Assembly (NCBI GenBank): GCA_034401795.1
Contig: CM067370.1
Coordinates: 102,242,028 to 102,306,027 of the forward strand
Reading direction: 5' to 3'
Length of the DNA: 64,000 nucleotides
Source of the DNA: Chaetoderma sp. LZ-2023a
Taxonomy: Eukaryota; Mollusca; Caudofoveata; Chaetodermatida; Chaetodermatidae
Within the stretch, counting starts at the first letter, position 1; the number at the start of each line of letters is the position of its first letter. Under the pieces are notes generated by a model. It searched no databases. It saw only the letters and a list, made by a program, of their open reading frames with translations, and was not told the DNA's origin. Shown here piece after piece: positions 196 to 60,115 of this stretch. A program made the translations under genes and the position numbers.

Positions 196-3100
196 CTTTT
201 CCTTGCTTGCCATATTATTTAAGTCCACAGCAGAAGAAGGTATATCATCAGGTGCTGGCTCCTTGGTCGCTTTGTCAAAAGCATCACTGCCTGTCTTACG
301 CGATGCTGCTGATTTAGTGTCTTTACTATGAGCTGAACGTACTACTGAGGCTGATGATGATGATGTTAATGATGACTTTGCTTTAACAACAGGTGACCTA
401 ATAATCATCTGTACATCTTCGTCCATAGGAGACATATCACTATCTACAGGTATAACTTCAACTTGAGAAAAACGTTTAGATTTGCTAGCACTAGAACTAT
501 CTGTAGATTGTTGAGAGGAAACTTTGATTTCTCTAGCAGTATTTGCAAATTTTTCAGAGTTTTTCTTTGCTAATGCAATTGCCTGAAGATTTTGTTTAAT
601 CTTACCCGAGTTTATTTTATTAAGAACGTCTGTGATATTTAGGATCTTGCCCTGCACCTGGGCAAAATCATCATCTTTCTGAGAAGACACTTTCTGTTGC
701 GCAGTATTTGAAACTGCGGACAATGTTGTGTTTCTAGAGACAGTTAATGGGGGTCTGGTTATATTTACTGGAGCGGGTGGTGGTGGTGGAGGGTGGCCTG
801 TATGCTGCATCTGTACAATAGCTGGTGCATCGGGTGTAAGAACACGAGAAATTGGACTGACATGCTGATCTATTGATTCAGTCGGCAACATACTGATTAA
901 AGGAGGACGCTGATCATGGCGTATAATACCACCGGGAAGTGACGCCTCTGGTGCTGCACCTGTAATTGCTGAAAATGAAATTGATGAACTATTGATAACT
1001 GTTTGCTGTGCTGATTCAAGGTTTTGTGTATATGAAACAGCAGGGATTTGGCCTTGTGAGACAGTTTGAAGGCCACCTGGCATATTCTGAACATGTATTA
1101 CTTGTTGTGGATGACTGACAGACCAGCCAAATCTTGCCATGTGTTGCGGTGGTGCTGCACTCGGTCCATCTGGAATACTAAATCTGCTGAATTCAGCTGT
1201 CACTCCTGGAGGACGGTTTATTAGTAATGGAGGGTTCATATTCATTAACAATGGCTGCCGTGGTATTGCGCCAGGAGGTGGAAATCCAGGCTGAGGCATT
1301 AGTCCTATGCCAACACGAACAGGCATATTTGGAGGTGGTAGCATTGTTAACATACGTGGATCACTTTGCATGAGAAAGCTACCATCACCCATTAGTGGTG
1401 GCGGCTGCATATGTCGGGGAATGGCATTACCCATGAGTGGCGGAGGTCCTAGATGCATCATTGGACCAGCCTGGACGTGCATAAGACCCTCTTCTACCGA
1501 TTCGATTCTATAATCATCAGGGCCAGCATCGTCATTACTGTCATCTATCTCCATATCATCTGTTGGATTAGAAGGATCATACAGCATCTCTGTGTCATTC
1601 CTGTCAAATTCATTTCTCATTTCAAACTTATTGTTACCAGGTCTGTCCGGGATCTTGTCATGTGTCCTAGACATATTTTGTTGCTCCCTCATGCGACCAG
1701 GACCAGACTGATTGTTTAGCCAGTCAGGTTGTCTATTATCTCGTCTATCTCTGTTTGATCTGTCTCTGTCTATACCCCTGTCCCGCTCCATACCTCTATC
1801 TCGATCCATACCCCTGTCTCGATCCATACCACGCTCTCTCCCCATACCCCTGTCCCTATCCATACCCCTGTCCCTATCCATACCCCTGTCCCTATCCATA
1901 CCCCTGTCCCTATCCATTCCCCTGTCCCTATCCATACCCCTGTCTCGATCTGTACCACGGTCTCGATCCATACCTCGGTCTCTTTCCATACCCCTATCTC
2001 TGTCTCTATCTCTATCCTTACCCCTGTCTCTATCCATGCCCCTGTTTCTATCTCTATCTTCAGATTGATCTCTGTCAAATCGGCTGCTTCTATTTGTATC
2101 ATCCTCCCATTTGCTGCGCCTATCTGACCTATTCCTATCACGATCCTTTGTCTTATCATCTTCTAAATCTTTCTCTCTGGCTGGCCGACCAAAAAATGTT
2201 GGTAACTGAAAATTAGCTAAAAAGTCTGCCGATTCGCCTATATATTCTACATCATCATCAGACTTATTCTCTTTGGTCAACACATCCTTTTCATTCTCCA
2301 CTGCAGACTTTATTTCTTTCTCGCCTTTTCCTAAGCTGTCATCAACAGAGCTTGGCTCTTTCTGAGAGGAGCTATTACTGTTAGATTTACTTTCTGTTAC
2401 ATCCATTTCTGGAGAAACTGGTTCCTCAATCACAACAACATTCTCATTATTCTCGTTACTTTTTCTGTCATCACTTTCATTATCCTCGTTTTTCCTTTTG
2501 GCATCGCTTACATTATCCTCATTATTCTTTTTGTCCTCTTTAACATTATCTTTACTAATATTTCTATCATCTAGTTCTATACTCTTTCTGTCATCACTCA
2601 CATTATCTTCTCTACTCTTTTTATTACTATCATTATTATCTTGATCTACATCATCAAATGAGCGTTTTTTATGCATATCATCAGATTTCTGAACACTATC
2701 GCCTGATGCCAAATTAGACTCATTCTTACTCTCACTGTAATCGTTTTCCTTTTCCCGATTTTTACGTCTTGGACTCCTGGAGTGTGACCGACTCCATCGA
2801 AGACTACGCCGCTTCTTTCTACCATCATCTGACCGTGAGCCTGATCTGCTTCTACGTGAATGTTTTCCTTTTCGACGACTTCTATTTCGAGATCGTGACC
2901 TAGATCTTGACCGAAATCGTTTTTCCTCAAACCGTGATGACCTGTCCCTTGATCGATCTCGAGACCTCTCCTTATAACTATCTTCTCTCTTTCCCACCTC
3001 TTTGTCTTTTTCACGCCGATTATCTTCTAATCGCTCCTGTCTGTCCTTGTCTTTCTTAAAATCCTTTGGAATATCGGTGTCCTCAATGTTAGAAAACCGT

Positions 3101-4064
3101 GATTCCCTCCTTCCCCTACGTTCCTCTCTTGCTGTCTTACGATCCTTTACTGGTGTCTCATCAGTGGGAGGAATCTCCACTACTTTCCTCTCTCGTTTTC
3201 GCTTTGGAATTCTGGGCAATTCAGAAATAGGTATCCTTGGTTTTCTGTCTGTTTCTGTTTCACTTTCAACAGCCTGGTCCTCGAAAGCACCGTCATCACC
3301 GACTTTAGACCTAACTCCTTCCTTCTGTTCTGAACTTGCTAAAACAACAACACGCATGTCGCCTGCAACAGCAATCGACAGATTCTCCTCATCAATCCCA
3401 TCAGTAACATGAACAGTTGGTGCCGAATGTTTCTTCTCCTCCTTATCTTCAAACTTTGATGGTATCTTTATCACTATTTTCTTACTATCTTTACTTGTCG
3501 CCTTTAATGAGCTAGATTGTTCCTCAAATACAATATCCTTAGGATGTGATGCTATTTTTTCAAACACATCGGCTAAGTCAAAATTTTCACTATTTGTCTT
3601 TCTATCATCAGTAGTTATAGGTGTCTCGTCATTGTCCTCTTCCTTAACCACAGCAATGTTAACATTGTCATGCTCCTCACCTTTATTACATTCCTCTTCA
3701 TCATCATTAGAATCACCAAATATATCTTTACACAACTGAAATTCATTCTCATCAATCTCATCCTCCTCTTCCAGTTTTGGAGTACATATATCATCATCAA
3801 CATCACCGACAACATCATCATCACTATCCTCCGCACTATTTTTCTCACTTAGTTCTGTAATTTTTGTATCTTGCTCCGGTTCAATGACAATTGAGTGCTG
3901 CTGCTCTGAAGCATCCTCAGAATTATCCACTTTTCCATCCTCGACCAATTCAACTGCTTTTTCATCATCAGTTGCATGGTTTGCATCATGTATGGAGTCC
4001 AAGCTGTTGCTATTTTCATTAGCAATATTGACATCTGAGATTGGCTTTTGGACAGTGAGTGAAC
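196..4064 (-). CDS. PHRF1: PHRF1 giant exon: acidic, RS, MDRDRG-repeat and proline-rich regions
   Basis: This exon of about 1,290 codons runs from acceptor TTTCTGCTTCAG to donor AAAAG|GTATGT on the minus strand. The open frame extends beyond both splice sites (4161 to 58), but the extra ends are intron read-through. Exon residues in order: acidic, Asp/Glu-rich (about 1-250); ISELPRIPKRKRERK (about 279), a PHRF1 hallmark; an Arg/Ser (RS) domain (about 368-438); a Lys/Asp/Asn-rich stretch; MDRDRG hexapeptide repeats (about 670-765); LYDPSNPT (about 828), like PHRF1 VYDPSDPT; a Met/Pro-rich region (about 870-940); and ITDVLNKINSGK (about 1142). It ends ASKEK. PHRF1 normally ends in an SRI-like CTD-binding domain, so that part should be encoded left of position 1. 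The YDPSNPT motif lies after the RS domain here but before it in the human protein as I recall it. Confidence 0.88.
1765..2060 (-). repeat. 18-bp coding minisatellite encoding MDRDRG repeats
   Basis: In the PHRF1 giant exon an 18-bp unit (plus-strand CCCCTGTCCCTATCCATA and variants) is repeated about 16 times, giving MDRDRG, MERDRG and TDRDRG hexapeptides. The central units, about 1840-1930, are nearly identical and the outer units are diverged. Because the unit is a multiple of 3, copy-number change keeps the frame. Confidence 0.9.
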
Positions 4065-4553
4065 CTGAAGCAGAAACAAAATTATAATGTGTAAAAAGCC
4101 TTTGACCTCTTGAGCTATAGATACACTTCTTAGACACCAAAGACAACCATCCACCTTCCACACAAATTTGATCTAGATCCTTTCAGGAGAACTCGAGTTA
4201 CATGTATCACGCAAGACATTTTAAAACCATTTCCATGACCATGACATTTGACCCTTTGGTCCAAAAATTAATAAACATTTTCTGGACAAGTCCAACCTCC
4301 CACCCAGGTTTGGTGAAGATTCTTTCAGTAAAACACACATTATTGCACCATAGACATTTTTAAAACCCTTTCGATGACCTTTGACTTTAGACCCCAAGTG
4401 TAAAGATACTTTCAATATCTATGAGCTATCATACTGGACAGTCACCGCAGGCATGTAGGCAGGCAGATGCAGTCCATCCATCTGTCTGCCCAGTCGCCAC
4501 GCCAGTCCATTTTCCCGCCCGCCCGCCCACACCGGTCCGTTTGCCCGCCCTCC
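4065..4553. repeat. Intron start with a dispersed-repeat-like sequence
   Basis: No exon is visible. About 4210-4400 holds a repeat-like text with phrases such as TTTGACCCTTTGGTCCAAAA and TTTGGTGAAGATTCTTTCAGT, and two related halves (TTTTAAAACC..TGACC at about 4221 and 4362). It leads into the GACA microsatellite, which suggests a non-autonomous element ending in simple repeat. Confidence 0.4.
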
Positions 4554-4623
4554 CATCAGACAGACAGACACACAGAGACGGACATACACAGACAGACAAA
4601 CACAGGCAGGCAGGCAGGCAGGC

Positions 4624-4690
<67 letters not shown>

Positions 4691-4704
4691 GACAGACAGA
4701 GACA
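4554..4704. repeat. (CAGA)n microsatellite
   Basis: CAGA/GACA tetranucleotide repeat, pure from about 4622 to 4690 and imperfect on both sides (CACAGAGACGG, GGCAGGCAGG). It creates long spurious open frames on both strands. Confidence 0.95.
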
Positions 4705-4861
4705 TTCTATGGCGACTCATAATAGACAGATGTCTTAGGATCTGAAGGAGAAACAACTGCCTAGCAAAGCTATTTTGAGGAAATTAGTTAATTAATGGAT
4801 AGACATTTTAGATTTAGATCATGAGTCGCGACCCTGTCAAACATTAATGAGTATGGTCTTG

Positions 4862-4947
4862 CAAAAAGCTTTCTCATACAAAAAATATTTTAAACAGAGT
4901 AAATCTGCATTGGATCTTTGTTTAATCACAGAAAACTCAGTAGGATG
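4862..4947 (+). repeat. Diverged tail fragment of the 1.17-kb segment
   Basis: GCTTTCTCATAC .. GCATTGGATCTTTGTTTAATC matches the last ~100 bp of the 1.17-kb segment (GCTTTCTCATACATG .. GCGTTGGATCTTTGTTAAATC). It lies just left of the first satellite monomers. Confidence 0.7.
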
Positions 4948-4992
4948 ATAAAATAGTTAAACCTGTCTATAATGGTCACCTACTTTTGGGGC

Positions 4993-5216
4993 CAAAAGAT
5001 GGGAGTTCTTTAAGATGGGTGGCAGCCAAAAGATGGCAGTTCTTTAAGATGGTTGCCGGCCAAAGGATGGCAGTTCTTTAAGATGGGTGGGCAAAAGATG
5101 GCAATCCTTTAAGATGGGTGGGCAAAAGATGGCAGTTCTTTAAGGTGGGTGGCTAAAAGATGGCAGCTCAAGCTGGGTGGGCAAATGATAGCAGTCCTTT
5201 AAGATGGGTGACGCAT
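4993..5216 (+). repeat. 31-bp satellite, left-edge block (diverged)
   Basis: First monomers of the array, irregular in length (for example GGTGGCAGCC, GGTTGCCGGCC), as expected at an array edge. It ends in TTTAAGATGGGTGACGCAT, the standard lead-in to the 1.17-kb segment. Confidence 0.9.
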
Positions 5217-5500
5217 GATGGTGTAATTTTGAAAACAGTAGTGCTGGAAGAGGACTCATGAAATATGTGTATATGTGAAAGATTCTAAGCAATCAAAGTT
5301 TACAAAGTTCCACGCTAAAAAAATCAATAAAACAGGAGCTCCGCAAATGGCGCATAATACCTCGCCATAATGACAAACCAATGAATGAGAGCTATCAGAA
5401 AGTAGCGATTTCTTCCTCAAACCTAGATTTCTTATATAGTTTCAACGCCATCCGCTAAACGGTCTAGAGTTATCGTCCAGAAACCAATTTTCATGATGGC
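5217..5500 (+). repeat. Truncated 1.17-kb segment (copy C0)
   Basis: Matches the first ~284 bp of the 1.17-kb segment (GGTGTAATTTTGAAAACAGTAG..). It switches to satellite inside TTCATGATGGCC: other copies continue ACTGGTGGCTGG, this one AAAAGATGGCAG. GATGGCC is common to both partners. Confidence 0.9.
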
Positions 5501-6575
5501 CAAAAGATGGCAGTCCTTTAAGATGGGTGGTCAAAAGATGGCAGTCCTTTAAGATGGGTGGCCAAAAGATGGCAGTCCTTTAACATGGGCGGCCAAATGA
5601 TGGCAATCCTTTAACATGGGTGGCCAAAAGATGGCAGTCCTTTAAGATGGGTGGCCAAATGATTACAGTCCTTTAAGATGGGTGGCCAAAAGATGGCAGT
5701 CCTTTAACATGGGTGGTCAAAAGATGGCAGTCCTTTAACATGGGTGGCCAAAAGATGGCAGTCCTTTAAGATGGGTGGCCAAAAGATGGTAGTCCTTTAA
5801 GATTGGTGGCCAAATGATTACAGTCCTTTAAGATGGGCGGCCAAAAGATGGCAGTCCTTAAAGATGGGTGGCCAAATGATAACAGTCCTTTAAGATGGGT
5901 GGCCAAAGGATGGCAGTACTTTAAGATGGGTGGCCAAATGATGGCAGTTCTTTAAGATGGGTGGCCAAATGATACCAGTCCTTTAAGATGGGTGGCCAAA
6001 AGATGGCAGTCCTTTAAGATGGGTGGCCAAAAGATGGCAGTCCTTTAACATGGGTGGCCAAATGATGGCAATCCTTTAAGATGGGTGGCCAATTGATTAC
6101 AGTCCTTTAAGATGGGTGGCCAAAAGATGGCAGTCCTTTAACATGGGTGGCCAAAAGATGGCAGTCCTTTAAGATGGGTGGCCAAAAGATGGTAGTCCTT
6201 TAAAATGGGTGGCCAAATGATTACAGTCCTTTAAGATGGGCGGCCAAAAGATGGCAGTACTTTAAGATGGGTGGCCAAATGATGGCAGTTCTTTAAGATG
6301 GGTGGCCATATGATGGCAGTCCTTTAAGATGGGTGGCCAAAAGATGGCAGTCCTTTAAGATGGGTGGCCAAAAGATGGCAGTCCTTTAAGATGGGTGGCC
6401 AAAAGATGACAGTTCTTTAAGATGGGTGGCCAAATGATGGCAGCCCTTTAAGATCGCAGGCCAAAAGATGTCAGTCCTTTAAGATGGGTGGCCAAATGAT
6501 GAGTCCTTTAAGATGGGTGGCCAAAAGATGGCAGTTCTTTAAGACGGGTGGTCAAATGATGGCAGTCCTTTAAGA
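5501..6575 (+). repeat. 31-bp satellite block
   Basis: About 35 monomers of AAGATGGGTGGCCAA plus AAGATGGCAGTCCTTT with scattered variants (GATTACAG, GATACCAG, AACATGGG). It continues on the far side of the hAT-like insertion. Confidence 0.97.
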
Positions 6576-7731
6576 TAGAGCCAATGATTTTCCGTTTCAA
6601 AATAACATGTTTTCCATTTCAGGATATATTAAATTCCGTTTCGTCACCGGTCTCCTAATTTTTCAGCTTCAAATGCATCATAATGTGTTGCTATCTCCCC
6701 ATGGTTACCACCAACCCTTTGTAGGTATGCTTCTCCAGAGGCCAAAAGTATAATGAGGCATTGGTAATTCAATAAATATGATATTTCAGTGAGGTAACAA
6801 GCAATATTAGATAGAATTTAAATCCAGAACTTCACCCTTAAAATTCAAGCCCATTAAATTACCAATGAAACATCACAATTCTGGACTCAGTCAATTGTCA
6901 CTACAGCAAATTGTGTGTGTGTGTGCGTGACTGCAAATATTTGTGACGTAACGCATAGGGTTTAACAGGTGCAATATGGCAAATGTTTCTACACTTGCTT
7001 TATAATACATATACCGGGAACTAGTGACTGCTAATCGCGCGTGCCCGGGCACATGCTCGAAATGCTAAAAAGTCAATTAGAATTAGTCTGCGTAACAGTC
7101 TATCCAGCTTGTCAGATTGCGCCCGGAACACGTTTGTGTACTGGGAACGTGTCAGATTGAGCAATGGTCCGCCATTTTATACTTTAGATTTGCCGCTTCA
7201 ATAGTTTTAAAAAGGCGTGAAAATGACAAAATATTGAATGTTGATGTTCTCTAGCGTTATATATGAATGTTTTATCAAGTTTCTTGGTTATGCATCGTCG
7301 TAATTTAACTCTAAACGTCAAGAAAGGGCTTCTATGGGTTTTAATTTCGCGTAAAATTTTGGAATTATGTACAGGAAAGATATCATCTCTGTGTACCGGA
7401 AAGACATCTCCGTGTACCGGAAGGACACGAAACAAAGTCTTGCGCATTGGAGTAAACGGATGTAATACGTTTGTCGTGATTTGGGAATATTTTGACATAA
7501 GCGAACTCTACTACTTTGCGATAGACATCAAATAACGCCAATTTTAATGATAATAAGCGAGAAATTTAAGTAAAATTAATATTTTCACCGAGATGGTCAA
7601 TTATTTAATGCGATTATATCTAGTTTTTGTGGAAAACATTTAATTGTCACCAAGATACCAGATTCCGTTTCAATATGTCCATTCCGCAAATTCCGTCCAT
7701 TTACCGCGATCACGGAAAATCATTGCCTCTA
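6576..7731. mobile_element. hAT-like non-autonomous DNA transposon inserted in the satellite
   Basis: A 1,156-bp insertion bounded by 20-bp terminal inverted repeats TAGAGSCAATGATTTTCCGT (one mismatch, S). It is flanked by exact 8-bp direct repeats CTTTAAGA at 6568-6575 and 7732-7739, a satellite-derived target duplication. TIRs starting TAGAG and an 8-bp duplication fit the hAT superfamily. Subterminal ATTCCGTTTC-like words recur at both ends. Only a 104-residue open frame (7498-7184, minus) exists; I see no transposase motifs, so the element is non-autonomous. Confidence 0.85.
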
Positions 7732-8526
7732 CTTTAAGATGAGTGGCCAAATGATGGCAGTTCTTTAAGATGTGTGGCCAAATGATGGCAGTTCTTTAAG
7801 ATGGGTGGCCAAATGATGGCAGTTCTTTAAGATGAGTGGCCAAATGATGGCAGTTCTTTAAGATGGGTGGCCAAATGATGGCAGTTCTTTAAGATGGGTG
7901 GCCAAATGATTACAGTCCTGTAAGATGGGTGGCCAAAAGATGGCAGTCCTTTAAGATGGGTGGCCAAATGATTACACTCCTTTAAGATGGGTGGCCAAAT
8001 GATTACAATCCTTTAAGATGGGTGGCCAACATATGGCAGTCCTATAAGATGGGTGGCCAAAAGATGGCAGTCCTTTAAGATGGGTGGCCAAAAGATGGCA
8101 GTCCCTTAAGATGGGTGGCCAAAAGATGGCAGTCCTTTAAGATGGGTGGCCAAATGATTACAGTCCTTTAAGATGGGTGGCAAAATGATGGCAAACCTTT
8201 AAGATGAGTGGCCAAAAGATGGCAGTCCTTTAAGATGGGTGGCCAAATGATTACAGTCCTTTAAGATGGGTGGCCAACATATGGCAGTCCTTTAAGATGG
8301 GTGGCCAACATATGGCAGTCCTTTAAGATGGGTGGCCAAAAGATGGCAGCCCTTTAAGATGGCAGGCCAAACGATGTCAGTCCTTTAAGATGAGTGGCCA
8401 AATGATGGCAGTTCTTTTAGATGGGTGGCCAAATGATGGCAATCATTTAAGATGGGTGGGCAAAAGATGGCAGTTCTTCAAGCTGGGTGGGCAAATGACA
8501 GCAGTCCTTTAAGATGGGTGACGCAT
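7732..8526 (+). repeat. 31-bp satellite block
   Basis: About 25 monomers between the hAT-like element and copy C1, rich in the AAATGATGGCAGTTC and AACATATGGCAG variants. It ends with the lead-in CAAGCTGGGTGGGCAAATG and GGTGACGCAT. Confidence 0.97.
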
Positions 8527-9682
8527 GATGGTATAATTTTGAAAACAGTAGTGCTGGAAGAGGACTGATGAAACATGTGTATATGTGAAAGATTCTAAGC
8601 AATCAAAGTTTCCAAAGTTCTACGCTAAAAAAATCAATAAAACAGGAGCTCCGCAAATGGCGCATAATACCTCGCCATAATGACAAACCAATGAATGAGA
8701 GCTATCAGAAAGTAGCGATTTCTTCCTCAAACCTAGATTTCTTATGAAGTTTCAACGCCATCCGCTAAACGGTCTAGAGTTATCGTCCAGAAACCAATTT
8801 TCATGATGGCCACTGGTGGCTGGCATCCATATTGGATTTCAGATCATTTTCTATTTCGATAGGTTTCCTCCTCAGAGGTAGTCCAGTCATCCTATGACGC
8901 AGCAAAGCGATACGCTAAACGGAAATGGAATTATCATTCAGAAACCGATTTTCAAGATGGCCACCAATGGTTGGCGGCCATATTGGATTTAGGATCATCT
9001 TCGATTTCGATAACTTTATTCCTCAGACCTAGTGAAGTCATCCTATGTTTCAAAGCAGTCCAACGATCAGTAATTGAATCACCAAGATGGCTGCCCTTGG
9101 CTCACGGGCATCTTGAATTTCGGATTAAATTGTCGATTTCGATAGGTTTCTTATCCACACCTAGTCCAAGAACCCTATGAAGTTTCAAAGTGATCTGATA
9201 AACTTTAGCGGAGCTCTCATGCAGAAACTAATTATCAAGATGGCCCCCAGTGGTTGGTGGCCATATTGAATTTCGGATCATTGTCAATTTTGAGATTTCT
9301 TCTCCAGACCTAGTCCAAGAACCCTATGAAGTTTCAAAGCCCACCAATCTGCACAGATGGCGCCATCACATAATACACTGCCATTGTTTGGTAGGGTATA
9401 AAGATGTCAATAACTAGCTTTATAAGATGTTATTATTACCCATTTTATTGGTTGATTATTATGTAATTAAATTATTGGTCTTCATTCTTATTTTTTTAGA
9501 TCTGTGGTGTGGAATGATAATGAAAGTGTTTTCATAATAAATCAGCGCTTTCTCATACATGTAAATTTTTCAGCAGAGTTGTTCTGCGTTGGATCTTTGT
9601 TAAATCATAGAAAGCTCTACCGATCCTAAATCAGTTCAAGATATTTGATATGAATTATATAAAACCATTAGATTACATGTAC
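8527..9682 (+). repeat. 1.17-kb segment copy C1 (ancestral-type variants)
   Basis: Full copy of 1,156 bp. It has an 11-bp deletion near ATTGAATCACCAAGATGG and the variants CATCACATAAT, TTCATAATAAATC and AAGATATTTG, shared with C10 and the solo copy C11 but not with C2-C9. Its open frame of 69 codons is a repeat artefact. Confidence 0.95.
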
Positions 9683-12600
9683 AAGATGGCAGTCCTTTAA
9701 GATGGGTGGTCAAAAAATGGCAGTTCTTTATGATGGCTACGTAAAAGATGGCATATTTTTAAGATGGGTAGCTAAAATATGGCAGTCCTTTAAGATGGGT
9801 AGCCAAATGATGGCAGTTCTTTAAGATGGCTGGCCAAAAGATGGCAGTCCTTTAAGATGGGTGGTCAAAAGATGGCAGTCCTTTAAGATGGGTGGCCAAA
9901 AGATGGCAGTCCTTTAAGATGGGTGGCCAAATGATTACAGTCCTTTAAGATGGGTGGCCAACATATGGCAGTCCTTTAAGATGGGTGGCCAACATATGGC
10001 AGTCCTTTAAGATGGGTGGCCAAAAGATGGCAGCCCTTTAAGATGGCAGGCCAAACGATGTCAGTCCTTTAAGATGAGTGGCCAAATGATGGCAGTTCTT
10101 TTAGATGGGTGGCCAAATGATGGCAATCATTTAAGATGGGTGGGCAAAAGATGGCAGTTCTTCAAGCTGGGTGGGCAAATGACAGCAGTCCTTTAAGATG
10201 GGTGACGCATGATGGTAGTCCTTTAAGATGGGTGACCAAAGGATGGCAGTACTTTAAGATGGGTGGCCAAATGATGGCAGTCCTTTAAGATGGGTGCCCA
10301 AAAGATGGCAGTCCTTTAAGATGGGTGGCCAAAAGATGGCAGTCCTTTAACATGGGTGGCCAAATGATGGCAATCCTTTAACATGGGTGGCCAAAAGATG
10401 GCAGTCCTTTAAGATGGGTGGCCAATTGATTACAGTCCTTTAAGATGGGTGGCCAAAAGATGGCAGTCCTTTAACATGGGTGGCCAAAAGATGGCAGTCC
10501 TTAAAGATGGGTGGCCAAATGATGACAGTCCTTTAAGATGGGCGGCCAAAGGATGGCAGTACTTTAAGATGGGTGGCCAAATGATGGCAGTTCTTTAAGA
10601 TGGGTGGCCAAATGATGGTAGTCCTTTAAGATGGGTGACCAAAGGATGGCAGTACTTTAAGATGGGTGGCCAAATGATGGCAGTCCTTTAAGATGGGTGC
10701 CCAAAAGATGGCAGTCCTTTAAGATGGGTGGTCAAATGATGGCAGTCCTTTAAGATGAGTGGCCAAATCATGGCAGTCCATTAAGATGGATGGCCAAATG
10801 ATTAGTCCTTTAAGATGGGTGGCCAAATGATTACAGTCCTTTAAGATGGATGGCCAAAAGATGGCAGTCCATTTAAGATGGGTGGCCAAAAGATGGCAGT
10901 CCTTTAAGATGGGTGGCCAAAAGATGGCAGTCCTTTAAGATGGGTGGCCAAATGATTACAGTCCTTTAGGATGGGTGGCAAAATATGGCAGTCCTTTAAG
11001 ATGGGTGGCCAAATGATGACAGTCCTTTAAGATGGGCGGCCAAAGGATGGCAGTTCTTTAAGATGAGTGGCCAAATGATGGCAGTTCTTTAAGATGGGTG
11101 GCCAAATGATGGCAATCCTTCAAGATGGGTGGCCAAAAGATGGCAGTCCTTTAAGATGGGTGGCCAAATGATTACAGTCCTTTAAGATGGGTGGCCAACA
11201 TATGGCAGTCCTTTAAGATGGGTGGCCAAAAGATGGCAGTCCTTTAAGATGGCAGTCCCTTAAGATGGCAGTCCTTTAAGATGGGTGGCCAAAAATGGCA
11301 GTTCTTTAAGATGGGTGGCCAAATGATTACAGTCCTTTAAGATGGGTGGCCAACATATGACAGTCCTTTAAGATGGCAGTCCCTTAAGATGGGTGGCCAA
11401 AAGATGGCAGGCCTTTAAGATGGGTGGCCAAAAATGGCAGTTCTTTGAGACGGGTGGCCAAATTATTACAGTCCTTTAAGATGGGTGGCCAAATGATGGC
11501 AATCCTTTAAGATGAGTGGCCAAAAGATGGCAGTCCTTTAAGATGGGTGGCCAAATGATTACAGTCCTTTAAGATGGGTGGCCACCATATGGCAGTCCTT
11601 TAAGATGGGTGGCCAAAAGATGGCAGTCCTTTAAGATGGGTGGCCAAAAGATGGCAGTCCCTTAAGATGGGTGGCCAAAAGATGGCAGTCCTTTAAGATG
11701 GGTGGCCAAAAATGGCAGTCCTTTAAGATGGGTGGCCAAAAGATGGCAGTCCTTTAACATGGGTGGCCAAAAGATGGCAGTCCTTTAAGATGGGTGGCCA
11801 ATTGATTACAGTCCTTTAAGATGGGTGGCCAAAAGATGGCAGTCCTTTAACATGGGTGGCCAAAAGATGGCAGTCCTTGAAGATGGGTGGCCAAATGATG
11901 ACAGTCCTTTAAGATGGGCGGCCAAAGGATGGCAGTACTTTAAGATGGGCGGCCAAAGGATGGCAGTACTTTAAGATGGGTGGCCAAATGATGGCAGTTC
12001 TTTAAGATGGGTGGCCAAATGATGGTAGTCCTTTAAGATGGGTGACCAAAGGATAGCAGTCCTTTAAGATGGGTGGCCAATTGATTACAGTCCTTTAAGA
12101 TGGGTGGCCAAAAGATGGCAGTCCTTTAACATGGGTGGCCAAAAGATAGCAGTCCTTTAAGATGGGTGGCCAATTGATTACAGTCCTTTAAGATGGGTGG
12201 CCAAAAGATGGCAGTCCTTTAACATGGGTGGCCAAAAGATGGCAGTCCTTAAAGATGGGTGGCCAAATGATGACAGTCCTTTAAGATGGGCGGCCAAAGG
12301 ATGGCAGTACTTTAAGATGGGTGGCCAAATGATGGCAGTTTTTTAAGATGGGTGGCCAAATGATGGTAGTCCTTTAAGATGGGTGACCAAAGGATGGCAG
12401 TACTTTAAGATGGGTGGCCAAATGATGGCAGTCCTTTAAGATGGGTGCCCAAAAGATGGCAGTCCTTTAAGATGGGTGGTCAAATGATGGCAGTCCTTTA
12501 AGATGAGTGGCCAAATCATGGCAGTCCATTAAGATGGGTGGCCAAATGATTAGTCCTTTAAGATGGGTGGCCAAATGATTACAGTCCTTTAAGATGGATG

Positions 12601-15600
12601 GCCAAAAGATGGCAGTCCATTTAAGATGGGTGGCCAAAAGATGGCAGTCCTTTAAGATGGGTGGCCAAAAGATGGCAGTCCTTTAAGATGGGTGGCCAAA
12701 TGATTACAGTCCTTTAGGATGGGTGGCCAAAATATGGCAGTCCTTTAAGATGGGTGGCCAAATGATGACAGTCCTTTAAGATGGGCGGCCAAAGGATGGC
12801 AGTTCTTTAAGATGAGTGGCCAAATGATGGCAGTTCTTTAAGATGGGTGGCCAAATGATGGCAATCCTTCAAGATGGGTGGCCAAAAGATGGCAGTCCTT
12901 TAAGATGGGTGGCCAAATGATTACAGTCCTTTAAGATGGGTGGCCAACATATGGCAGTCCTTTAAGATGGGTGGCCAAAAGATGGCAGTCCTTTAAGATG
13001 GCAGTCCCTTAAGATGGCAGTCCTTTAAGATGGGTGGCCAAAAATGGCAGTTCTTTAAGATGGGTGGCCAAAGGATTACAGTCCTTTAAGATGGGTGGCC
13101 AACATATGAGTCCTTTAAGATGGCAGTCCCTTAAGATGGGTGGCCAAAAATGGCAGTTCTTTGAGACGGGTGGCCAAATTATTACAGTCCTTTAAGATGG
13201 GTGGCCAAATGATGGCAATCCTTTAAGATGAGTGGCCAAAAGATGGCAGTCCTTTAAGATGGGTGGCCAAATGATTACAGTCCTTTAAGATGGGTGGCCA
13301 CCATATGGCAGTCCTTTAAGATGGGTGGCCAAAAGATGGCAGTCCTTTAAGATGGGTGGCCAAAAGATGGCAGTCCCTTAAGATGGGTGGCCAAAAGATG
13401 GCAGTCCTTTAAGATGGGTGGCCAAAAATGGCAGTCCTTTAAGATGGGTGGCCAAAAGATGGCAGTCCTTTAACATGGGTGGCCAAAAGATGGCAGTCCT
13501 TTAAGATGGGTGGCCAATTGATTACAGTCCTTTAAGATGGGTGGCCAAAAGATGGCAGTCCTTTAACATGGGTGGCCAAAAGATGGCAGTCCTTGAAGAT
13601 GGGTGGCCAAATGATGACAGTCCTTTAAGATGGGCGGCCAAAGGATGGCAGTACTTTAAGATGGGTGGCCAAATGATGGCAGTTCTTTAAGATGGGTGGC
13701 CAAATGATGGTAGTCCTTTAAGATGGGTGACCAAAGGATGGCAGTACTTTAAGATGGGTGGCCAAATGATGGCAGTTCTTTAAGATGGGTGGCCAAAAGA
13801 TGGCAGTCCTTTAACATGGGTGGCCAAAAGATGGCAGTCCTTTAAGATGGGTGGCCAATTGATTACAGTCCTTTAAGATGGGTGGCCAAAGGCTGGCAGT
13901 CCTTTAAGATGGGTGGCCAAAAGATGGCAGTCCTTTAAGATGGGTGGCCAAAAGATGGCAGTCCCTTAAGATGGGTGGCCAAAAGATGGCAGTCCCTTAA
14001 GATGGGTGGCCAAAAGATGGCAGTCCTTTAAGATGGGTGGCCAAAAATGGCAGTCCTTTAAGATGGGTGGCCAAAAGATGGCAGTCCTTTAACATGGGTG
14101 GCCAAAAGATGGCAGTCCTTTAAGATGGGTGGCCAATTGATTACAGTCCTTTAAGATGGGTGGCCAAAAGATGGCAGTCCTTTAACATGGGTGGCCAAAA
14201 GATGGCAGTCCTTGAAGATGGGTGGCCAAATGATGACAGTCCTTTAAGATGGGCGGCCAAAGGATGGCAGTACTTTAAGATGGGTGGCCAAATGATGGCA
14301 GTTCTTTAAGATGGGTGGCCAAATGATGGTAGTCCTTTAAGATGGGTGACCAAAGGATAGCAGTCCTTTAAGATGGGTGGCCAATTGATTACAGTCCTTT
14401 AAGATGGGTGGCCAAAAGATGGCAGTCCTTTAACATGGGTGGCCAAAAGATAGCAGTCCTTTAAGATGGGTGGCCAATTGATTACAGTCCTTTAAGATGG
14501 GTGGCCAAAAGATGGCAGTCCTTTAACATGGGTGGCCAAAAGATGGCAGTCCTTAAAGATGGGTGGCCAAATGATGACAGTCCTTTAAGATGGGCGGCCA
14601 AAGGATGGCAGTACTTTAAGATGGGTGGCCAAATGATGGCAGTTCTTTAAGATGGGTGGCCAAATGATGGTAGTCCTTTAAGATGGGTGACCAAAGGATG
14701 GCAGTACTTTAAGATGGGTGGCCAAATGATGGCAGTCCTTTAAGATGGGTGCCCAAAAGATGGCAGTCCTTTAAGATGGGTGGTCAAATGATGGCAGTCC
14801 TTTAAGATGAGTGGCCAAATCATGGCAGTCCATTAAGATGGGTGGCCAAATGATTAGTCCTTTAAGATGGGTGGCCAAATGATTACAGTCCTTTAAGATG
14901 GATGGCCAAAAGATGGCAGTCCATTTAAGATGGGTGGCCAAAAGATGGCAGTCCTTTAAGATGGGTGGCCAAAAGATGGCAGTCCTTTAAGATGGGTGGC
15001 CAAATGATTACAGTCCTTTAGGATGGGTGGCCAAAATATGGCAGTCCTTTAAGATGGGTGGCCAAATGATGACAGTCCTTTAAGATGGGCGGCCAAAGGA
15101 TGGCAGTTCTTTAAGATGAGTGGCCAAATGATGGCAGTTCTTTAAGATGGGTGGCCAAATGATGGCAATCCTTCAAGATGGGTGGCCAAAAGATGGCAGT
15201 CCTTTAAGATGGGTGGCCAAATGATTACAGTCCTTTAAGATGGGTGGCCAACATATGGCAGTCCTTTAAGATGGGTGGCCAAAAGATGGCAGTCCTTTAA
15301 GATGGCAGTCCCTTAAGATGGCAGTCCTTTAAGATGGGTGGCCAAAAATGGCAGTTCTTTAAGATGGGTGGCCAAAAGATGGCAGTCCTTTAACATGGGT
15401 GGCCAAAAGATGGCAGTCCTTTAAGATGGGTGGCCAATTGATTACAGTCCTTTAAGATGGGTGGCCAAAGGCTGGCAGTCCCTTAAGATGGGTGGCCAAA
15501 AGATGGCAGTCCTTTAAGATGGGTGGCCAAAAATGGCAGTCCTTTAAGATGGGTGGTCAAATGATGGCAGCCCTTTAAGATGGGTGGCCAAAAGATGGCA

Positions 15601-36702: not shown

Positions 36703-36703
36703 T

Positions 36704-45990: not shown

Positions 45991-46002
45991 ACCCTTTAAC
46001 AC

Positions 46003-46078
46003 TCTAACTGACCAAAACCAGCATCTGCAGTGCTCTTTAAAAATATCCATTTGCAGATCTGATCAAGAAGACTTTTTA
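46003..46078. mobile_element. Left part of a foldback element (family H2)
   Basis: CCCTTTAACACTCTAACTGACCAAAA .. AAGAAGACTTTTTAAC matches the left arm of the copy starting at about 60677. It then stops abruptly at the 147-bp repeat cluster. A matching right end (TTTTTCTTGAATAAATTTGAGG) appears at about 46888-46910. Confidence 0.55.
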
Positions 46079-46080
46079 AC

Positions 46081-46866
46081 GAGAGCTCTGCAAACGGTGC
46101 ATAATACCCCGCCATGATGACAAACCAATGAATGAGTCAGAAAATATGTGTTTCCTCCTCAGACCCATCAGACTAGTCATCCATATGAAGTGTCAAAGCG
46201 ATTCGTCAAACGGTCAAGGCGGTATCGTCCGGAAAGCAATTTTCAAGATGACTGCTTCTGACTGGCGGCCATATTGGATTTCGGATTATCGTAAATTTTG
46301 ATGTTTCTTCACTAGACATATTCCAACGACCCTAGAAAGTGATCCGATAAACGGTAACAGAGTTATCATCCAGAAACCAACTTTCAAGATGGCAGCCCGT
46401 GGCTGGCGGCTATCTTGGCGTTCGGACCATCGTCAAGTTCTATAAGTTTCTCCAGACCTAGTCCAACAACCCTATGACGTTTCAAAGCGATCCGATAAAC
46501 GGGAACAGAGTTATCATCCAGAAACCAATTTTCAAGATGGTGGCTGGTGGCCATCTTGAATTTCAGATCATTGTCAATTTCGATAGGTTTCTTCTTCAGA
46601 CCTAGTCCAACCACTCTATGAAGTTTCAAAGCGATCCGATAAACGGCGAGTTATCATCCAGAAACCAATTTTCAAGATGGTGGCTGGCGGCCATCTTGGA
46701 GTTCGTATCATTGCCAATCTCGATAGGTTTCTTCCCCAGACCTAGCCCAACCACTCCATGAAGTTTCAAAGCGATCCAATACACGGTAAAAGAGATATCA
46801 TCCGGAATTTTCAAGATGCCTGCTGGTGGATGGTGGCCATCTTGGATTTCGGATCATGATTTGCTA
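46081..46866 (+). repeat. Diverged tandem cluster of ~147-bp sub-repeats
   Basis: About five degenerate units with a common core: ATCCGATAAACGG .. GAGTTATCATCCAGAAACC .. TTCAAGATGG .. GGCCATCTTGG, then GATAGGTTTCTTC..CCTAGTCCAAC. The same unit makes up the 5' two-thirds of the 1.17-kb segment. Two repetitive open frames on the minus strand (46629-46384, 46814-46626) are artefacts. Confidence 0.85.
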
Positions 46867-47580
46867 TGAGGAAATTGAAATTTTTCTTGAATAAATTTGA
46901 GGATTCAGGTGTTAATGAACCACCACAATTTATCCACAGCTCTTTACCATAGTTTTATCAACCCGCTTCTAGTCAAGAATTGTCAGGAACATTGAAACAT
47001 TGTCTTAGTGAATGCCACTTTGTAGATGGAGGAAATTATTAATTTACCACTGAAATGACTGGCTTGATTATCATTTGTGGTAAAATTTCAGACTTCTCTT
47101 AAAATGCAAATGGGCATTTCTCAAGACAACCGCAGAGGTTGGTTTTGGCCAACTTCACCATGAAAGGTTTAGTCGACAACATATCATTGGTGACCATACA
47201 GTGTCCATTATAGACCGGTGTGCCTCTATGCAGACCAAAAATATATACCTATATGAAAATGCCGTTTGTCAAAGATTAATTCATAACATATTCACTAGCA
47301 ATTACTTTTACATGTTGTAGGCAGCAATGTTTTACACTCAGATTAAGTCCAAAATATTCAAGAGTACGCTTTACTTTGATTTGGAAACATTTAAAGTTAA
47401 TTCTGAGCTGTACTATACAATAGTAGCAATGCCCTCTAATAATACAACAAGTACATACACCTTAAATAAAGTATTAGTCATCGCTTAACAGAAATTTCTA
47501 GTCAATATCGCCTATCACACATACATGCACATACCATTCACCCAACAGTCTGATGTTAATTTGATGCATCGCATAATTAT
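46867..47580. other. Intronic sequence without a recognisable gene
   Basis: AT-rich. Contains the right end of a family-H2 foldback at about 46888-46910 and another partial H2 core (AATTTACCACTGAAATGACTGG) near 47041. Nothing else is supported. Confidence 0.5.
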
Positions 47581-47614
47581 GTAGGGCGGAACGTGCTTAT
47601 TTTGGCAATCTCAC

Positions 47615-47727
47615 CAGCCTGGTTGATTGCAGATGCAGAAGGATGCCATACAATGTAGCTGATATGTCCAATGGCTTTCTTTGGATTTTCGCTGGGGATA
47701 GAGGCATCACCATCGGGATCTAATTTA
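47615..47727 (-). pseudogene. Coding-like fragment, unknown origin
   Basis: On the minus strand GATACAG|T opens a frame with DPDGDASIPSENPKKAIGH and ISYIVWHPSASAINQAG, followed by G|GTGAGA. Frame-wise it reads like a normal exon (no stop, balanced composition), and it continues open to a TAA at about 47582. Phase: it starts needing one base and ends with one, so it cannot be inserted in frame between the flanking PHRF1 exons. I do not recognise the protein. It may be a nested-gene exon or a captured gene fragment; the adjacent 47746-47814 is repeat. Confidence 0.35.
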
Positions 47728-47745
47728 CTGTATCGTAATGAACTT

Positions 47746-47814
47746 TCTCATACGTAAATAAGTTTATCTAAAGAAGTTTATTCTGCGTTGGATCTCTGTT
47801 AAATCATAGAAAGC
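47746..47814 (+). repeat. Tail fragment of the 1.17-kb segment
   Basis: CTTTCTCATACG .. TTCTGCGTTGGATCTCTGTT and AAATCATAGAAAGCT match the AT-rich tail of the 1.17-kb segment. Confidence 0.7.
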
Positions 47815-47919
47815 TAATAGCTGTGACAGAATATGCATCTAAGGCAGCACATTTACACCCTGCATCTACATTTAAACTTATGCTTCAAAGTTATGTGCAT
47901 GTATATTTCCCCTTCACAT

Positions 47920-49008
47920 GATGGCGTAATTTTGAAAACAGCAGTGCTGGAAAAGGACTGATGAAACATGTGTACATATGAACGATTCTAAGCAATCAAA
48001 GTTTTCAAAGTTCTACGCTAAAAAAATCAATAAAACAGCTCTGCAAACCGCGCATAATACCACGCCCTCACGACAAATGAATAAATGAGAGCTTTCAGCA
48101 AGTAGCGATTTCTTCCTCAGACATAGATTTCTTATGAAGTTTCAACATGATCTGATAAACGATCAGAGTTATCATCCGGAAACCAATTTTCAAGATGACC
48201 ACCGGTGGCTGGTGTCCATATTGGATTTCAGATCAGTTTCGATTTCGATAAGTTTCTTCCTCAGACGTAGTCGTCATTCTATGAAGCTTCAAACTGATAC
48301 GCTAAACGGAAATGGAATTATCATTCGGAAAGCTATTTTCAAGATGGCTCCCGATGGTTGGCGGCCAAATTGGATTTAGGATCATCTTTGATTTTGATAA
48401 GTTTATTCCTCGGACCTAGTCCAGTCATCCTGTCTTTCAAAGCAATCCGATAAAACAGTAATTGAGTTACCTTTCGGAAAACCTTCAAGATAGCCACCCT
48501 TGGCTCACGGACATGCGGACATCTTGGATTTCAGATCTGATAAACATTAACAGAGCTTTTATGCAGAAACTAATTTCCAAGATGGCCCCTTCTTGGATTT
48601 CAGATCATCGTCAATTTCGATAGGTTTCTTCTCCAGACCTAGTCCATGAACTCTCTGGAGTTTCAAAGCCAACCCATCCACACAGATGGTGCCATCACAT
48701 GATAAATACATCGGCAATTTTTTGGCAGGGTATAAAGATATAAATTTCTAGCTTTATACGATGTTATTATTACCCATTTTATTGGTGGGCTCATTATGTA
48801 GTTAGATTATTGGTCTTCATTGTTATCTTTCTAAGATCTGTGTTGTTAATGTGGACTGATAATGGAACTGTTTTCATAATAAATCAGTGCTTTCTCATAC
48901 ACATAAATGCTTCAGCAGAGTTGTTCTGCGTTGGATCTTTGTTTAATCATAGAAAGCTCTACAGATCCTACATCAGTTCAAGATATTTGATATTAGATTA
49001 CATGTACA
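47920..49008 (+). repeat. Solo, diverged copy of the 1.17-kb segment (C11)
   Basis: Begins GATGGCGTAATTTTGAAAACAG and ends GATTACATGTACA like the array copies. It is about 1,089 bp, clearly diverged, and has no 31-bp monomers on either side. It has CATCACATGAT, TTCATAATAAATC and AAGATATTTG, the variants also kept by C1 and C10. The open frames in it are artefacts. Confidence 0.9.
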
Positions 49009-49529
49009 GTATGTATGTTATGTTCACATTTTCTTATGCAACACTTAAAGCTAACAAGAATTCTTACGAATTAAATTTCTCCCCTCTCCTCAATGCCAAT
49101 AAGCATCAGAGGTCAGTGACATTGACTTTTGATCTTGTTATCATGTGGATTCTTAAAAGCATAGATAACAATGTCCATATTAAAGTGCAAAACGTAACAT
49201 TGGCGCACCCATTGCCACTGCGATCGTCATTGCCATCGGAAAGGTTAAACCAATGGCTCACTTCTGGTTTGCAGATGAGACAAAAATTACTATTGTGAGG
49301 CTAACTTTTCCTCTATGAAATACCAGCGTATTAGACTGCATTGCAAAGTTCTATATAGGATACATGTTGAATACTTTGAAAATAATTTGACTGCCTAATA
49401 TCATATTTACTATCATATTTGAGGTAGCAATTTGAGTGTATAAAAGCATGAAAATTGTCTCACAAATACATGTAAGACACATTTACACAGTCCATTATAA
49501 CTGAATTAGCAATGTCCACTGCATTGGGA
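49009..49529. other. Intronic sequence without a recognisable gene
   Basis: A plus-strand open frame crosses from the repeat into this region (48810-49298) but shows no domain and starts in repeat DNA. Nothing else is seen. Confidence 0.4.
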
Positions 49530-50470
49530 GAATCGGGGACTACAATCTGTCATTCAAGTAACTGAGGTCATAAGTTGGAGTGGTCATCAAACTGTCCCTG
49601 TCTCCTCTGAACGTCTCTTCAAAGGATACATCAATAGACCAGAAGTTTCTCTTAGCCTGCTCATACCGCTGGCTGTGCTGCAAGGTGTTCTCCTGTCTCA
49701 TCTGTCTGAGGACTCAACCACTGCAGAATCTATAATCTTGAGATGTGTACCGAGACGATTATGACCAGTCCTAAATCTGAAGATACATGTCTGATCCTCC
49801 CTACTGAGGCTTTGTATTGCATCATTATGCTGCCTGCTGGAGGTTCTTGTGGGTCTACTGATATACTTCAGCACTTCAAAGTCAATCTCATAGTTGAACA
49901 GTTCGTTCTTTGACCCTTCCTTTAGCCAGTTGGTCAGCTTTGTCACTTCCTGATATGCCAGTGTCAGGGGATCCACTGTAAGGTGACATTGTTGTCTTTT
50001 GCCAATGTCTTTCTTATCCACTCTCCAGCACCTAGAGCGCTGACAGGGAGTCGGTCAGGAAGACAATATTTTCATTTATGGTTTCACGTTGTATTAGTTT
50101 TTGGCTAGCTAAGATCAGTGCCTGGATTTCTGCAGTATAATTGGTACAGTGCTTCCCAGTTGACAAACATAAGTGGAAACCCAATGTAAGCACCTGCTCT
50201 TTCATTTTTGACAAGCCTGGGCCCATGTTCTCGAAACTATCGTTAGCTAGCGATATCGTTACACTCATTGCTTTTGTATTGTGTAACGATATCGCTAACA
50301 TAACGAGAGCTTCGGGAACATGGGCCCTGGATAGCTGATCCATCTGTATAAACATGGTTCCACGCTTCCTTAGGGTAGTGTTCAACAATGCGACTCAAAA
50401 CAAGAACTTTGTTGGTCACCTCTGCTTGATATACCCGGAATCGGGGGCCTCATGAAATCATAATTAAATG
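49530..50470 (-). pseudogene. Decayed non-LTR retrotransposon 3' end: RNase H domain
   Basis: Minus-strand frames give the RNase H signature in order: VYTDGSA (about 50351-50334), NYTAEIQAL with the second acidic residue, IVFLTDSLSAL with the third, then KLTNWLKEGS in place of the usual AD.LAK.GS, and FRFRTGHNRLGTH. A tail region follows (QRYEQAKRNFW .. TPTYDLSYLNDRL then stop). Stops and frameshifts separate the pieces (about 50021-50032 and 49700). A 105-bp MITE splits the domain. The layout fits an RNase H-bearing APE-type element. It is dead. Confidence 0.8.
50221..50325. mobile_element. 105-bp palindromic MITE inside the RNase H remnant
   Basis: Near-perfect palindrome with ends GCCCATGTTC / GAACATGGGC and inner GCGATATCGTTACAC / GTGTAACGATATCGC arms. 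Flanked by CCTGG at 50216-50220 and 50326-50330, a 5-bp target duplication. It lies three codons after the YTDGSA motif, so it landed after or during loss of the retrotransposon. Confidence 0.85.
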
Positions 50471-50575
50471 ACATAGGTCCACTACAAAATGTGGCAAAGC
50501 TCTGACAATAAGTTAGTAACCATTCAAATTGTAGTTCTTTGATGAATTTATGACTTAATTAAACACTCTGTTGAA

Positions 50576-50700
50576 CATTGCAAAACTAATTTGACGAGGA
50601 GCTGTTGCCACCATAGGCAGCTCCCAGTCAAATTAGTTTCAAAATTTTCAAAAGCTTACGTGCATAGTTACCTTGAAATCAAGATTCCAGGAATTTATGG
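50576..50700. mobile_element. Hairpin MITE family H1, copy near PHRF1 exon 3
   Basis: CAAAACTAATTTGACGAGGAGC and GCTCCCAGTCAAATTAGTTT form the hairpin. The flank AAAGCTTACGTGCATAGTTACC matches the copy at 60-130. It lies about 117 bp from the exon donor at 50817. Confidence 0.7.
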
Positions 50701-50817
50701 TCCAGTGTTAGAGTCAAGTCAAACATACACACAAAGTGGACAGAACTTAGCTGGAAATAAATGTGGCGGAGCTCCCACTAGATCCCTCCTATTGATATAG
50801 ATTAATGACTATCTCAC

Positions 50818-50939
50818 CATCTCGGTTGATCGTGACATCTTTGCCAGTCATGCGTAACCTGCTCTGATTCTGTAAAATGGAACCGAGCAGATCAAAGCCA
50901 GAAGGGGTAGCATCAGGTGAATTGTTCGAGTCAAATGCG
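50818..50939 (-). CDS. PHRF1: PHRF1 internal exon (DLLGSIL..NRDG)
   Basis: A 122-bp exon with acceptor TTTTTTACAG and donor GATG|GTGAGA on the minus strand. It begins with C, which completes AG from the previous exon to give Ser. It then has 40 codons and ends with G, which joins GT of the giant exon to give Gly. The peptide contains SGFDLLGSILQNQSRL and DVTINRD. Human PHRF1 has DLLGSILSGQS and VIIHRDGSL at the same place, and here NRD-G-SL is recreated exactly across the splice. Reading past the donor meets a stop after ten more codons, so a terminal-exon reading is possible but less likely. The following intron is 46,753 bp and holds the whole satellite array. Confidence 0.88.
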
Positions 50940-53387: not shown

Positions 53388-53459
53388 TTTGACTAATTTA
53401 ATGAAGTCAATATTTCTCTCATATATATACACAGATAAATCAAGTCTAATACTCGACAT

Positions 53460-56720: not shown

Positions 56721-56801
56721 CTTGGTAACACTGGCCTTGCCACACGCTTGTGGGATTTTAAAGCCGATTTAGAATATGGACTCTTTGTCGATGCCTGTTC
56801 A
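56721..56801 (-). CDS. PHRF1: PHRF1 small internal exon (SALKSH..VARPV)
   Basis: An 81-bp exon with acceptor ATTCTTGCAG and donor CCAAG|GTAAGA on the minus strand. It starts with one base that completes the upstream AG and ends with AG. Its 26 whole codons include KSALKSHKRVARPVLP, which matches the PHRF1 landmark SRSALQSHQPVARPV. It is too short to appear as a long open frame and is recognised only by splice sites, phase and similarity. The upstream intron is 3,099 bp and the downstream intron 5,781 bp. Phase agreement on both sides and the conserved motif make a chance match unlikely. Confidence 0.87.
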
Positions 56802-59258: not shown

Positions 59259-59331
59259 TAGTTATAGTCAGCAACAGCCTTCTCAAACACTGTCGACCCA
59301 AATGTGCTCCAGTCTTTCCTCTACCTCAATG

Positions 59332-59690: not shown

Positions 59691-59900
59691 TGACATCAGT
59701 GCGTTACAGAGGTGTGTCGGTAGGAGGATGTGTAGCCATAGATGAGAATTGGTAGTACTAACCCTGTATAGTTAGTTTCAAATTGATACCAAAACATGTG
59801 ACAAGTGGGTGGAGCTTAATGAGAAATGGGCATAGCATAGCTAGAAATGGATCATTCTATTGCCTAATCAGTCTTAGTGGTTCGTCTTCAAGACACTCAC

Positions 59901-60115
59901 CTATCTGATAATGGTAGAAGATCATCTTTGTGGCCCATTATAGACAGCGGTGAAACACCAAGGTCTGCTCTCAGTGTATCTAAATTCTTCCCGTGTGTAG
60001 TTTTCTGCATTGGAAGCAAGCGACCAGTCGCAGGCTGTGATAAACCAAGCTTGCCAGCTATGCGAGATTTCACAGTTGATGGCGCTACAGCTTTGCTTCG
60101 CGGAAAACTCTTTTT
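59901..60115 (-). CDS. PHRF1: PHRF1 internal exon (KSRIA..LRADLG segment)
   Basis: The minus strand shows acceptor TTTCAG just before 60115, a 71-codon open frame and donor AG|GTGAGT after 59901. The peptide contains KSRIAGKLGLSQP and LDTLRADLGVSPLSIMG. Human PHRF1 has, from memory, a matching order of landmarks (SRIARTLGL, then LLRADIG..LSLFG) between its PHD finger and its RS domain. PHRF1 is a nuclear RING/PHD E3 ubiquitin ligase linked to TGIF turnover, H3K36-methyl binding and RNA polymerase II CTD contacts. The RING and PHD lie upstream of this segment and are not in the window. The exon starts in phase 0 if the whole run is coding and ends with two bases (AG), which join the T of the next exon to give Ser. 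It lies between two copies of a hairpin MITE. Confidence 0.85.

Follow-up and report, generated by a model that had tools for sequence, protein, structure and literature searches.

A 31-bp minisatellite occupies most of a single intron of a gene that we identify as PHRF1 in the mollusc Chaetoderma sp. LZ-2023a. The 64,000-nucleotide stretch of DNA analysed here (C12:102242028-102306027, where C12 is contig CM067370.1; hereafter "the window") carries four exons of this gene on its minus strand, and one of the intervening introns measures 46,753 bp, of which 88% is an array complex. The genome totals 2.44 Gb in 2753 contigs, and at the stringency searched the 31-bp repeat is private to this intron. 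We consider it likely that the array reflects neutral, local expansion within an otherwise ordinary intron and that it is spliced out.

The Array Lies within an Intron of PHRF1

The four exons have GT-AG borders (Table 1), and when joined they form 4287 nt, or 1429 codons, with 0 stops; the other two frames of the joined sequence contain 66 and 219 stops. The exon directly 5′ of the large intron ends within a codon (G|GT). These exons, their joining in phase and an intron length of 46.8 kb had been put forward in an initial annotation of the window, and all of this holds. The same annotation viewed the array as intronic rather than intergenic, which agrees with the single frame and the splice sites, and it anticipated RING and PHD exons on the minus strand past the 64-kb end of the window.

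Such exons were found after 60 kb of downstream and 140 kb of upstream flank had been fetched (264 kb in all with the window). When joined, the exons at about 83.9-77.0 kb match the RING family PF13639 at 35.8 bits (Pfam cut-off 27.3), followed by the PHD family PF00628 at 42.2 bits (cut-off 24). On the other side of the array, and on the same strand, the exons at about -7660 and -11060 match SCAF11-like_C (PF23030, 41.3 bits, cut-off 27), an SRI-type C-terminal domain that we take to be a feature of PHRF1 proteins. Measured from the RING exon as far as the stop, the gene extends over at least about 95 kb. Based on this domain architecture, we conclude that the gene is PHRF1.

It is extremely improbable that the exons on either side of the array belong to different genes and that the array is intergenic. 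Such an arrangement is difficult to reconcile with four exons that share a single open frame of 1429 codons, with a frame that continues, as judged by eye, to the lysine-rich exon upstream (about 70700) and to the SCAF11-like_C exon downstream (about -7660), and with RING and PHD being separated from SCAF11-like_C by the array, all on a common strand. Two points nonetheless count in its favour and against a single gene. The exon junctions are known from genomic sequence alone, and Pfam recognises no family in the sequence next to the array, whose likeness to PHRF1 comes from its position, its frame and what we presume to be a resemblance to the middle part of human PHRF1. The large exon in this stretch encodes an acidic, RS-rich region with MDRDRG-like repeats. 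It also contains an in-frame 18-bp minisatellite (1760-2052) that encodes a repeated MDRDRG-like hexapeptide.

To assess copy number we used a 442-amino-acid query made from PHRF1 exons, which left out the linking exons and took in just the beginning of the large one. Among the best 95 of 119 candidates scored, 10 of 22 matches fall at the PHRF1 locus. The remaining 12 are weaker (E 2.9e-8 to 9e-4) and all lie within query residues 6-165, which correspond to the RING/PHD part. No second PHRF1 copy was found in the genome among these candidates, and the locus therefore appears to hold the sole PHRF1 gene.

Anatomy and Growth of the Array

Without the array complex, the intron is 5762 bp long. 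Five further introns in the model of this gene measure about 0.66, 3.1, 5.8, 7.9 and 10.6 kb, and thus what remains without the array is of ordinary length for this gene. When up to 9 mismatches are allowed, the complex contains 888 monomers of 31 bp, all on the plus strand and arranged in 13 blocks that total 27,850 bp (60% of the intron). These monomers represent 144 distinct sequences. Interleaved with the blocks is a 1.17-kb segment, present in the intron as ten near-full copies, one 290-bp fragment and one diverged copy, plus shorter pieces.

The initial annotation had described an intron made up mostly of a 31-bp megasatellite, with about 900 monomers and eleven copies of the segment. 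Its monomer estimate and the predominance of the repeat are borne out. The figure of eleven is fair but loose given the inventory above, and the term "megasatellite" is not appropriate to a repeat unit of 31 bp. A minisatellite, or variable number tandem repeat (VNTR), with a higher-order unit of about 3 kb fits better.

This higher-order unit consists of a monomer block plus a segment, and eight such units follow one another in tandem, most of them about 3.04 kb long. Among the 28 pairs formed by these eight, sequences are 97.5-100% identical where aligned, with gaps of up to 1.4 kb; a ninth unit of 8.2 kb (9683-17919) was left out of the comparison. One pair of adjacent 3042-bp units shows no difference at all, and two non-adjacent units are 99.94% identical. 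The longest run of identical adjacent 31-mers is only 3, whereas the longest exact self-match extends over 4206 bp at a period of 3042 (periods 20-11,999 tried). This disparity indicates that the latest growth acted on the unit of about 3 kb.

From this anatomy we infer a sequence of events in which a 31-bp minisatellite would have arisen in place and grown, thereby enlarging an ordinary intron of about 5.8 kb to 46.8 kb. The 31-bp units probably multiplied first. Several rounds of tandem duplication would then have copied a composite of about 3 kb, in which a monomer block is joined to a segment holding a copy of a dispersed element; unequal exchange or replication-based duplication is the most likely mechanism.

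Two identical neighbouring units could also be produced by mis-assembly, an observation that weighs against this history. Together with the non-adjacent pair at 99.94%, they raise the possibility that the repeats are true but that their number or order is partly a product of the assembly. We judge this quite unlikely. The 264 kb of joined sequence contain no N, substitutions and length differences (3024-4435 bp) distinguish the units, the flanking exons are collinear, and the 4206-bp self-match at period 3042 is shorter than what we take to be the usual length of long reads.

Tandem repeats make up 58% of the window, compared to 7.0% of the downstream flank and 3.7% of the upstream flank. A CAGA run lies to the left of the array at 4557-4700. 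Most of the 1.17-kb segments contain plus-strand open reading frames (ORFs) of 97 amino acids, which we take as presumed by-products of the repeats of about 150 bp within the segment. No Rfam family reaches threshold in the window.

Table 1. Coordinates of the PHRF1 exons and of the repeats in the array-bearing intron, numbered from the first nucleotide of the window
Feature	Position	Strand	Size	Details
PHRF1 RING exon	about 83.9 kb; continuation 83.2 kb	-		upstream of window
PHRF1 PHD finger halves	78.6 and 77.0 kb	-		upstream of window
Likely arginine-rich exon	about 74.2 kb			between PHD exons and first exon of window; by eye, start approximate
Likely lysine-rich exon	end about 70700			between PHD exons and first exon of window; by eye, start approximate
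PHRF1 coding exon	59901..60115	-	215 nt	acceptor TAAATTTCAG, donor GTGAGT; in-frame join
PHRF1 coding exon	56721..56801	-	81 nt	acceptor ATTCTTGCAG, donor GTAAGA; in-frame join
PHRF1 coding exon, directly 5′ of large intron	50818..50939	-	122 nt	acceptor TTTTTTACAG, donor GTGAGA
Array-bearing intron	4065..50817	-	46,753 bp	GT-AG splice borders
Large PHRF1 coding exon	196..4064	-	3869 nt	acceptor TCTGCTTCAG, donor GTATGT; open frame
SCAF11-like_C exons	about -7660 and -11060	-		downstream of window; -11060 exon terminates in stop
Array complex	4993..45983	+	40,991 bp	31-bp monomers interleaved with 1.17-kb segments
Longest monomer block	9685..16752	+		227 monomers
Segment, first near-full copy	8523..9682	+		98.1% identity
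Segment, reference copy	16746..17919	+	1174 bp	
Segment fragment	5213..5502	+	290 bp	97.6% identity
Diverged segment copy	47917..49000	+		83-86% identity; outside array
Eight tandem higher-order units	17920..44244	+	3024-4435 bp each	monomer block + segment
Transposon	6577..7731	+	about 1155 bp	inside monomer block; ends read by eye

The Monomer Is Private to the Locus, but the Segment Core Is Dispersed

A 30-base monomer pattern was searched on both strands of the whole 2.44-Gb genome with up to 2 mismatches. It occurs 696 times in forward and 0 times in reverse orientation, and the window likewise contains 696 matches. The first 100 genomic places all lie at C12:102.247-102.254 Mb, and because the two counts are equal, the remaining 596 matches must also fall at the locus. 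A reversed control pattern gives 0 and 0 matches in the genome, and 100 dinucleotide shuffles of the window yield 0 occurrences of the monomer pattern compared to the 696 in the real sequence. In addition, no monomer was found in the 200 kb of flanks when up to 8 mismatches were allowed. Thus, no spread of the 31-bp repeat to other sites was found at a stringency of 2 mismatches or fewer, and within that scope the repeat is private to the PHRF1 intron. An earlier DNA search had returned at least 391 monomer matches, those listed all being at C12:102.247-102.289 Mb. The figure of 391 is not usable as a count, because the window by itself yields 576-913 matches in local BLAST, depending on which of six settings is used.

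In contrast to the 31-bp array, the core of the 1.17-kb segment (about 106-839 of the reference copy; 16851-17584) belongs to a dispersed family. A first look gave 8386 candidates, of which the best 40 were scored. Among the matches listed, those away from the locus fall within query positions 106-839 at 71-85% identity, with one short exception at 847-896. The segment ends were not found elsewhere among the 40 scored candidates. Tandem repeats of about 150 bp are present in all three copies of the family that were fetched. The tandem repeats of this family abound in AAGATGGC and in the complementary sequence.

This arrangement recalls the Helentron-type non-autonomous elements called HINE in Crassostrea gigas, which are described as dispersed, with a short central repeat array whose commonest units are 140-180 bp and with a 3′ palindrome (PMC7492417). 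The segment core shares with these elements, as described there, its dispersal and its central repeats of about 150 bp, judging by the 40 scored candidates and the three fetched copies. However, strict runs of the left tetranucleotide microsatellite expected of HINE occur in 0 of these 3 copies, and a degenerate GTCN stretch is visible by eye in 1. Of 4 stretches that were folded, 3 have a predicted hairpin adjacent to the end, and 1 surpasses almost every shuffle (z -3.58, -1.39, 0.16, -1.05). Given the failed microsatellite test and the mixed hairpin result, we do not class the segment core as HINE.

Splice and Polyadenylation Signals in the Array

The intron keeps good GT-AG borders, which makes it most likely that the array is transcribed and then spliced out. 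On the transcript strand, the monomer blocks contain 0 GTRAG and 0 AATAAA in 27.9 kb, and one acceptor-like site with a pyrimidine tract. YAG is present there at 2.3 per kb, compared to 27.6 per kb in other intron sequence. The two strands of the blocks differ in simpler words as well: GT occurs at 13.4 per kb on the transcript strand versus 63.3 on the other, YAG at 2.3 versus 32.7 per kb, and monomers without any GT number 566 of 888 versus 21 of 888.

Several findings caution against reading much into this scarcity. The opposite strand of the blocks also holds just 2 GTRAG and 0 AATAAA, and since both strands are nearly free of these signals, strand is irrelevant for them. In 7% of trials, shuffling a monomer leaves neither GT nor YAG in it, and because all monomers share a common origin, the strand bias in GT and YAG amounts to roughly one observation. 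Furthermore, the totals for the ten segments come to 10 GTRAG and 20 AATAAA in the direction of transcription, compared to 0 and 12 on the opposite strand, which corresponds to a mean of one GTRAG and two AATAAA per copy. The intron as a whole is therefore not free of splice and polyadenylation signals. The notion that the transcript strand is uniquely free of strong signals of both kinds does not hold, given that the other strand is nearly the same for GTRAG and AATAAA; the difference between the strands is confined to GT and YAG. To judge from the words counted, the monomer blocks look quiet and the segments do not, and neither amounts to evidence of selection.

Neutral expansion thus remains the explanation we favour. 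The array would be tolerated because it is located in non-coding sequence, and perhaps also because its monomers nearly lack competing donor and polyadenylation signals. A bolder proposal is that the repeat was born and kept in a conserved regulatory gene precisely because it is signal-poor, chiefly on the RNA strand, with selection removing signal-richer arrays from introns and with array length setting the time or level of PHRF1 expression. We regard this proposal as very unlikely.

Comparison with Known Intronic Repeats

Macrosatellites such as human DXZ4 consist of kilobase-size tandem units at a single locus. The higher-order level of the PHRF1 array resembles them in both respects. Among the titles listed in literature searches, none mentions a satellite in a PHRF1 intron.

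The closest known case is an intronic VNTR in human CACNA1C (TRACT), for which a preprint describes a 30-bp unit, arrays of 100-1000+ units spanning 3-30+ kb, and units that are variants on one motif (PMC13131567). Long alleles are accompanied there by lower expression in two tissues, fibroblasts and testis, with no overt instability. The PHRF1 array, with its 31-bp unit, 888 units and 27.85 kb, closely parallels that VNTR as described. Unlike it, the PHRF1 array has a second level, the composite unit of about 3 kb with a copy of a dispersed element, and is known from one assembly. Tandem units of at least 6 bp, restricted to one locus and located inside an intron, are what characterise an intronic VNTR or minisatellite, and the PHRF1 array has each of these properties.

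The Drosophila Y-linked genes kl-3 and kl-5 also have satellite DNA in the introns of protein-coding genes. The report on them describes megabase introns of satellite that make up over 99% of each locus and are transcribed, with expression in spermatogenesis (PMC6508621). Compared with those megabases of simple repeats, the PHRF1 intron is small at 47 kb and its units are more complex; 46,753 bp in a gene of at least about 95 kb falls short of the gigantism portrayed there. Therefore, the array is a large example of an already known type of intronic repeat, and its second repeat level is a feature of its own.

Possible Effects on Gene Expression

The initial annotation had suggested that the array could affect elongation, splicing or chromatin of PHRF1. 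This suggestion is not supported by the monomer blocks, whose transcript strand offers neither GTRAG nor AATAAA and is the C-rich one, with a plus-strand GC skew of 0.29-0.35 where the blocks dominate. A C-rich transcript does not favour R-loops. The signals in the segments, one GTRAG and two AATAAA per copy, may leave room for some effect.

A more specific version holds that the array regulates PHRF1 as an enhancer, silencer or pausing zone, acting through its AAGATGG words, which we take to be a YY1-like core, or through chromatin state. Between 4991 and 46060 there are 1077 AAGATGG and 0 CCATCTT, compared to 31 and 53 in the 200 kb of flanks, and the AAGATGG at monomer positions 15-21 ranks third in conservation among the 31 7-mers. 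However, amplification of any repeat raises the count of the words it contains, no 7-mer of the monomer is less conserved than its second AAGATGG, and the fuller motif, which we presume to be AAGATGGCGG, has 0 occurrences. Because one of the two words is among the most conserved 7-mers and the other is the least, a role as a binding platform, examined through word counts and conservation per 7-mer, is disfavoured and was kept as a low-weight alternative. By analogy, the lower expression seen with long CACNA1C alleles in fibroblasts and testis would be compatible with regulation by array length. The same VNTR shows that an intronic array of similar unit and length is already known (PMC13131567), which, together with the opposite conservation of the two AAGATGG words, speaks against the effect suggested initially. 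Moreover, the monomer occurs at one locus only and offers no second case for comparison. On balance, we consider regulation by the array unlikely and favour neutral expansion.

Transposon Insertion and Other Elements

A transposon interrupts one of the monomer blocks (Table 1). Its inverted ends measure 18 bp and contain 1 mismatch; inclusion of the T at 6576 lengthens them to 19 bp, and depending on the assignment of this T the target duplication is 8 or 9 bp (CTTTAAGA or CTTTAAGAT). A duplication of 8 bp would presumably suit a hAT-like element. When the best 40 of 129 first-look candidates were scored, 7 further matches spanned bases 1 to 1155 at 94-97% identity, and many more lacked an inner part. 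These 7 full-length matches and the many shorter ones suggest that the family may have been active recently. No second copy was found in the window, where the only match is the element itself, and the insertion has not been duplicated alongside the units of about 3 kb. The location of the transposon inside a monomer block indicates that the surrounding block predates the insertion.

Other elements occur in the window. The ORF at 62027-62437 (+), antisense in a PHRF1 intron, matches a retroelement-type endonuclease (PF14529, 29.3 bits, cut-off 27.4). The ORF at 53070-53516 (-) weakly resembles a C17orf113-type zinc finger (PF25431), its 27.1 bits falling short of the cut-off of 29.5. Copies of a short element that contains an inverted repeat (TTGAAACTAATTTGACTGG...) lie in several PHRF1 introns, at 50575-50700, 59410-59506, 60344-60389, 61152-61253 and other places.

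Concluding Remarks

The PHRF1 array provides a clean case of a repeat that is private to one intron and whose layers of growth can be read: the 31-bp unit, the composite unit of about 3 kb, the diverged copy outside the array and the later insertion of a transposon. Although a single case known only from genomic DNA answers neither question, such cases bear on how far introns can inflate before splicing or expression suffers, and on whether growth within them is limited to sequences poor in splice signals.

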